Shown: positions 22,134 to 43,207 of the stretch, piece after piece
How the letters are laid out: each line of letters starts with the position of its first letter
How positions within the stretch are numbered: the stretch's first letter is position 1
NCBI GenBank assembly: GCA_010093605.1
Contig: MU004194.1
Location: 543,793 to 607,792 of the forward strand
Source of the DNA: Lophium mytilinum
Lineage: Eukaryota; Ascomycota; Dothideomycetes; Mytilinidiales; Mytilinidiaceae
Reading direction: 5' to 3'
Length of the DNA stretch: 64,000 nucleotides
Notes under the pieces: model-generated
What the model was told of the DNA's origin: nothing
Database searches by the model: none
Seen by the model: only the letters and a program-made list of their open reading frames with translations
Made by a program: the position numbers and the translations under genes

Positions 22134-23474
22134 CTAGTCATTGTAGTTGACAATGCCCGAGCCGTCCTTGTTGACCTTGGGAAGACCATAGCGTTCAGCA
22201 AGGTCGTCCTCCTGGGATTTCCCGGCGGGATCAAAGACTGGACGTTCGCCCTGGCAGCAAACTCGCACGGCGTGGCGACGATGGGGCGCAAAGCCGTAAG
22301 ATGCAGAGTGATTCTAGGGCACTGTTAGCCGTTTCCAAACCAAGTGTCGAGGAGTCAAAACGTACGCAGACACGGTTGTCCCAGAAAGCGACGTCGTTCT
22401 TGTTCCACTGGAAGCGGACGTGCAGCTCCTGGGTTGTGGCGACGATCTCGTTGAGATATCCCAGGATGGCATCGCTCTCAGTCTTGGGGATCCCGACAAT
22501 CTTAGTGACGAAGCCAGGATTGAAGAAGAGCGCCTTCCAGCCCGTTACGGGATGGGTGCGGACGATGGGGTGCTCAGTGATGACAGGCTCGCGGCGGACA
22601 GGACGGCCCAGATCACGTGATCCTTGGGCTTGCATCTCAGCGGAATGCAGAGCGGTGAGGCCCTCGAGGTACTTTTGCATGTGCGGAGAGAGGGCATCGT
22701 ATGCTGCATACTGAGAGGACCAGAGGGTGTCGCCTCCTCCGCCGCGTGGAGGGCCAGTGACGACCTTCAGGGACGTGTAGGAAGGAGGTTGAATCTCATA
22801 GGTCACTAGAATCATTAGCTTTTAAAGCGATCATGCTGCATGATGTTGCGCTTACCCTAGGTTTGTCAGTATTGCTTCGTGGTGGGGAGAGAGCAGAGGC
22901 CACTTACATCAGAGTGCCACAAGAAGGATGGAGCAAACATGGCCCGCATGTCGGTCGAGTTCTCACCGGTGTATACAACATGAACATCCTCCAGGCCAGG
23001 ACGCTGGGGCACACAGGTGGTTGCGTGCTTGTGCAATGTGCCAAAGTAAGCTCCAAGCTCGCGCTGAGCATCGATGGTTAGGTTCTTTTGGTCTCGGAAG
23101 AAGACGACGCCACGAGTGGCAATTAGGCGTGCGAGGTCATCCTTCTGGGCATCCGTGAGGTTGGCCAAGTCGACGCCGTGGACCTCTGTGCCAATCTTAG
23201 GGTTGTAGTCGAAGACATCTGTGGCGGCGCTAAGGAGGTTTCGGAACTCTGGGTCGCCGTTGAGGCCCTTATCATGGTACGGGACCTCGGTCAAGGCCGG
23301 CCACTTGACTTCGGGGAAGCGTGGGCGAAGATCCTCGAACTCGTAGTTTTCGTGTGACTCGACGACATTGCGGCCTGGTGTGTAGTTGATTGTAGGCTTG
23401 TTCTTGAGAGGAGCCTTGACGTCCGAGTTCTTGAAGGCGTCATACTGAACGGATTCCACAAGGCCAGGTGCCAT
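22134..23474 (-). CDS. TauD/TfdA-type 2-oxoglutarate dioxygenase with a one-nucleotide exon
   Basis: Proposed exons: 23474-22908, 22856 (a single G), 22805-22366 and 22313-22134, total 1188 nt, 395 residues. The family core is clear: GTEVHGVDLANLT, then FFRDQ, iron ligands H187 and D189 in WHSD, and H338 in NRVCNHSASYGF, with HRRHAVRV for 2-oxoglutarate. TauD-like enzymes oxidise sulfonates or related substrates to release sulfite or cleave C-H bonds; fungal paralogues have varied substrates. Between WHSD and TYEIQPPSYT lie two abutting canonical introns (51 and 50 nt) with one G between them. That G is needed to make valine (GTG) and keep frame; reading through the first intron meets a stop. 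Likely cytosolic. A TATA-like site lies about 165 bp upstream. Confidence 0.9.
22856..22856 (-). other. Putative one-nucleotide exon
   Basis: The minus strand reads ...acctag G gtaagc... at this base. The upstream intron (22907-22857) has donor gtaagt, branch-like actgac and acceptor cctag. The downstream intron (22855-22806) has donor gtaagc, branch-like gctaat and acceptor ctag. Joining GAT + G + TGACC gives D-V-T, matching the conserved WHSDVTYEIQ of the family. Confidence 0.75.

Positions 23475-41101: not shown

Positions 41102-43207
<2,106 letters not shown>

Follow-up and report, generated by a model that had tools for sequence, protein, structure and literature searches.

A Predicted Single-Nucleotide Exon Between Two Tandem Introns in a TauD-Family Dioxygenase Gene of Lophium mytilinum

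Results

A dioxygenase gene of Lophium mytilinum very probably contains two adjacent and complete U2-type introns that are separated by an exon of only one nucleotide, the G at position 22856 of the window (the whole 64,000-nucleotide stretch of genomic DNA analyzed here). Four lines of evidence favor this predicted arrangement, namely the reading frame, the spacing of residues in the protein family, the match to consensus splice motifs, and tests against chance.

The genome assembly comprises 43.18 Mb in 24 contigs, with the window located on contig 14. A run of ten N at 42759–42768 of the window lies inside a stretch with a repetitive translation (HFSHFSHF / PISPISPIS) and is probably an assembly gap within a tandem repeat. 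The dioxygenase gene runs along the minus strand from 23474 to 22134, and splicing out three introns leaves a coding sequence of 1188 nt including the stop codon, equivalent to 395 amino acids. The translated product matches the PF02668 (TauD) profile with 204.1 bits at a cut-off of 27, covering profile positions 3–266 of 267, and comparison with solved TauD-type enzymes returned 32 distinct matching sequences with a best E value of 3.7e-47. The WHSD motif occupies residues 186–189 and the histidine of NHS is residue 338; together, we take them to form the HxD...H iron site, whose residues are common to the window protein and the aligned TauD enzymes. With the match extending over the whole domain and the HxD...H residues present, the product is predicted to be a TauD-family dioxygenase, as proposed in the preliminary description. 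The genome is rich in TauD-type genes, with at least 43 exon-level PF02668 matches at E 0.001 or better.

Table 1. Predicted exons and introns of the dioxygenase gene (positions in the window)
Feature	Positions	Strand	Basis
Exon 1, 567 nt, ATG to GAT codon of WHSD (D189)	22908..23474	-	Open frame, within PF02668 match
Intron 1, 51 nt, GTAAGT..CTGAC..CTAG, phase 0 (after D189)	22857..22907	-	Consensus and length as in local intron survey
Exon 2, single G, first base of V190 codon	22856..22856	-	Required for 395-aa frame
Intron 2, 50 nt, GTAAGC..CTAAT..CTAG, phase 1 (within V190 codon)	22806..22855	-	Consensus and length as in local intron survey
Exon 3, 440 nt, TGACCTATGAG.. to codon TGC	22366..22805	-	Splice model
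Intron 3, 52 nt, GTACGT..GCTAAC..CTAG, ordinary, phase 0	22314..22365	-	Splice model
Exon 4, NHSASYG.. to stop codon	22134..22313	-	Splice model

The 102 bases at 22806–22907 are filled exactly by intron 1, the G, and intron 2 (Table 1). In coding orientation, the GAT codon of D189 is followed by GTAAGTGGCC..CTGACAAACCTAG (51 nt), the G, GTAAGC..CTAATGATTCTAG (50 nt), and TGACCTATGAG, so that the single base is flanked by the AG of one complete intron and the GT of the other, in an AG-G-GT core. The donors, the branch-like motifs, and the CTAG ends all agree with the earlier claim of two complete introns abutting with one G between them.

The effect of this single base on the frame is drastic. 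When the G is included, the protein reads WHSD-V-TYEIQPP and continues over its full 395 residues. Skipping the G, by a join across the 102 nt, creates GAT-TGA and a stop after 189 residues, while retention of intron 1, intron 2, or both leads to a stop at 202 residues. Each of these four alternatives, the skip and the three retentions, thus yields a truncated product, and replacing the G by 0 or 2 bases gives a stop at 189 or 192 residues. As any skip or retention ends in an early stop, only double splicing of these sites would make the dioxygenase. Two earlier claims hold up here, namely that the frame breaks without the G and is restored by it over the 1188-nt coding sequence, and that reading through the first intron meets a stop.

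Splicing at other sites could also keep the frame open. Enumeration of GT/GC..AG introns of at least 35 nt, with at most two introns allowed, gave 15 open in-frame products, seven of which keep WHSD, and three of these seven use GT donors only. These three are the one-nucleotide exon, a 98-nt intron with a gtggcc donor that adds one residue, and an 89-nt GTAAGT..TTTAAAAG intron that adds four; the other splice choices among the 15 were discarded for weak sites or added residues. The preliminary description was right about the gtggcc donor and the residue that comes with it, but this form is not the sole alternative, as the 89-nt TTTAAAAG form is open as well. The PF02668 score is 204.1 bits for the one-nucleotide exon, 200.6 bits for the 98-nt intron, and 195.7 bits for the 89-nt intron, which leaves the one-nucleotide exon with only a small lead of 3.5 bits over the 98-nt form.

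Judged from sequence comparison, family spacing is a stricter discriminator than the Pfam score. No gap occurs at WHSDVTY in the three alignments displayed out of the 32 solved TauD-type sequences. We further compared the forms with bacterial relatives, keeping 80 out of 269 confirmed ones and taking the best-aligning open frame for each. Exactly one residue lies between WHxD and the next Thr/Ser in all 80, distributed over 66 WHTD-V-TF, 13 WHSD-V-SC, and one WHRD-R-TY. The valine form reaches the top score against 79 of the 80 relatives; against the remaining one, a leucine form scores one unit higher, and this form likewise contains a one-nucleotide exon but relies on GC as donor and AAG as acceptor.

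These comparisons weigh on the reading in which a single 98-nt intron runs from a GTGGCC donor, 4 nt downstream of GTAAGT, to the CTAG of intron 2, joining GAT to GATGTAATGACC instead of G-TGACC and giving WHSD-V-M-TYE. Such an intron is open and in frame, and its product still reaches 200.6 bits. However, it would pass over a perfect GTAAGT in favor of a poor donor nearby and insert an extra residue directly after the metal-binding aspartate, and against each of the 80 bacterial relatives its product falls 2 to 11 score units below the valine form (mean 10.2). We consider this 98-nt intron very improbable.

The internal organization of the 102 bases offers a further point of comparison. We shuffled the interior of the supposed single 102-nt intron in 200,000 trials with dinucleotide composition preserved. 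A one-nucleotide exon between two consensus introns arose in just 6 of them; a frame-restoring exon of 1–19 nt arose in 48 and any exon of 0–20 nt in 137. A 98-nt intron would leave the internal CTGAC..CTAG-G-GTAAGC unexplained. The same figures bear on a second reading, in which a single 102-nt intron (GTAAGT..TTCTAG) is present, the assembly or the strain is short of one base in a flanking exon, and the one-nucleotide exon is illusory. Restoring that base would likewise give the family spacing, but the properly spaced branch motif, acceptor, and donor inside the intron would then be coincidental. In addition, the gene is otherwise complete with an open frame, and 102 nt is about twice the usual intron length. 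We assign this reading, too, a very low probability.

Usual lengths were taken from 38 candidate introns predicted ab initio, a small set that includes some false or overlapping members and has donors limited to GTRNGY by rule. Within it, 25 of the 38 measure 40–69 nt, and GTAAGT and GTAAGC serve as donor in eight and five, respectively. Intron 1 and intron 2 match this set in length and donor and hence look ordinary, one by one. The GTRNGY-only rule makes the survey blind to the frequency of gtggcc-like donors.

Their juxtaposition, on the other hand, is rare. A search for GTRNGY..CTRAY..YAG introns of 45–75 nt covered both strands of 209,494 bases from this genome, drawn from the window, a neighboring 40 kb, and TauD loci that overlap in some cases. 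This yielded 200 intron-like stretches, and pairs 0–60 nt apart were counted once at a gap of 1 nt and twice each at gaps of 27 and 55 nt. The window pair is the only consensus tandem with a gap below 27 nt in these bases, and after removal of duplicates two pairs remain with gaps below 40 nt. Both gap-27 counts come from one place, where a TauD paralogue seems to have a genuine 27-nt exon with the joined frame IAIWDNRSCFHTATFDYDANR. This exon (locus L019, 69–192, contig 2, overlapping locus L043) lies between introns of 49 and 48 nt and encodes part of the second iron-binding region, with the joined reading WDNRSCFHTATFDYDANR. The pair serves as a positive control for the survey. The tandem arrangement is absent from 12 other loci of the same genome with a readable HxD-type motif, all of them paralogues. 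A scan of viral contigs for relatives gave three pattern matches, none of them a relative.

Two short introns in contact, with consecutive splicing expected, also recall a true stwintron, in which a splice element of one intron is split by the other. Here, in contrast, each intron has its full set of splice elements, with a coding base standing between the two. No consensus internal intron that splits a donor behind any of its first five bases turned up in the DNA scanned, this locus included, and inspection by eye gave no support for branch- or acceptor-split forms. The [D1,2] type specifically requires a G before the first donor, where this gene has a T. A nested stwintron is, in our estimate, hardly probable at all. 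The close kinship to stwintrons that had been suggested is better described as a loose likeness, since the splice elements of each intron are left unbroken by the other and the arrangement is a tandem one.

Discussion

From the features of the one-nucleotide exon and its two introns, we infer how the gene would be spliced in vivo and in which order. Splice sites of Ascomycota are reported to be paired by intron definition (PMC12403724; also PMC7138796), and each of the two short introns (51 and 50 nt) would be recognized across itself. The two splicing events would probably be successive. In the AG-G-GT core, only one base separates the intron 1 acceptor from the intron 2 donor; simultaneous occupancy is therefore hardly possible, and the sites are likely used in turn. 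Whichever intron is removed first, the other would stay intact (GATG|GTAAGC or CTAG|GTGACC), and both orders would end in GAT-G-TGACC, that is, WHSD-V-TYE. Prior removal of intron 1 seems likelier because it is transcribed first. Failure at either step would result in an early stop, presumably followed by decay of the transcript. Sequential removal is, in all, a reasonable expectation for this gene.

Paralogues of the gene have introns close to the same site. Loci L043 (contig 2, 783–836) and L042 (contig 7, 934–983) carry introns of 54 and 50 nt after the GA of the same aspartate codon, in phase 2, and read WHSDITFE and WHADITFE. Their position is one nucleotide upstream of intron 1 in the window gene, and introns in this family thus follow GA, GAT, and GATG, three nucleotide positions in a row. 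Two other paralogues (L013 and L020) have, by eye, an apparent intron a few codons downstream of HxD, at the codon after the Glu of SYE. The locus suspected at first (L044, contig 5), which we take to be of the gamma-butyrobetaine hydroxylase kind, was set aside as uninformative on the one-nucleotide exon site.

Tandem introns around a one-nucleotide exon form a natural intermediate of a one-nucleotide intron shift, as loss of intron 1 would leave a phase 1 intron and loss of intron 2 a phase 0 intron. The TauD family might conceivably record intron sliding by way of such an exon, a rather unlikely scenario that would differ from the published stwintron route. Fekete and others reportedly proposed in 2017 that stwintrons lead to one-nucleotide intron shifts. 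Recent duplication as the origin of both introns was set aside as unsupported: intron 1 and intron 2 share no likeness beyond their splice motifs, and shuffling their interiors gave a similarity score at least as high in 823 of 1000 trials. For histone H4E, near-coincident introns in phase 2 and phase 0 are described as indistinguishable from independent gain (PMC10878826).

If the predicted one-nucleotide exon is real, the gene would join CYP621A as the second of its kind among nuclear fungal genes, as far as the literature covered shows. Its occurrence in an enzyme family unrelated to CYP621A, with the same AG-G-GT core, suggests that such exons recur. They may easily be lost in annotation, and they could set the lower limit for an exon that the spliceosome keeps. 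As a skipped base means an immediate stop, the site would report cleanly on how faithfully, and in which order, the introns are removed.

Among the known systems, fungal mitochondrial group II introns offer a formal parallel. Introns rnl-576 and rnl-577 are reported with a one-nucleotide exon (PMC12308204); as in the window gene, these are neighboring introns around a single base in fungi, and some other species have only one of the two. They are, however, group II introns of an organelle rRNA gene that are spliced by non-spliceosomal chemistry. Fungal stwintrons such as [D1,2], in which an internal intron splits an element of an external one (PMC12403724, PMC7138796), resemble the window gene in that two U2 introns touch, would be excised one after the other by intron definition, and are mis-spliced when the distal sites alone are used. 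Stwintrons are nested, whereas the introns described here would be in tandem with a coding base between them. The outcome of distal mis-splicing differs accordingly, with [D1,2] leaving an intronic G in the mRNA and the window gene losing an exonic one.

Single-nucleotide exons had been called very rare in the preliminary description. Only a handful of genes with such exons are known, but the statement needs updating, as they have been published for APC11, VPS55, and CYP621A. In Arabidopsis APC11, the exon is an A within a 422-nt intronic stretch and was proven with mutated constructs, whose substituted base turned up in the cDNA (Guo & Liu 2015, PMC4674806). The exon of plant VPS55 was proven by RT-PCR in a report that also covers APC11 (PMC8831610). 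Both share with the window gene a one-nucleotide coding exon between two spliceosomal introns that was missed by annotation, although they are plant genes. Among the open-licence papers covered, titles and abstract openings mention neither a TauD gene with such an exon nor any nuclear fungal gene with one besides CYP621A, which is weak evidence of absence.

A close counterpart is CYP621A of Fusarium (Nelson & Syed 2026, February; PMC12940212). Its single-nucleotide exon is reported for 20 orthologues (24 genes), with RNA reads in two species, and all genes studied read AGGGT; the stretch between the neighboring exons, 139 nt in F. graminearum, exceeds the usual length of a single intron, the median being 56 (PMC12940212). 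Both cases concern a nuclear gene of a filamentous fungus and one base in an AGGGT context, which completes a codon in a conserved motif and whose omission breaks the frame, in a region that is long for a single intron. They differ in that CYP621A is a P450 with the base in the middle of a Gly codon, while the exon described here belongs to the TauD family, supplies the first base of a Val codon, and is predicted from the sequence of one genome. On these features, the predicted exon fits the published kind of single-nucleotide exon represented by APC11, VPS55, and CYP621A.
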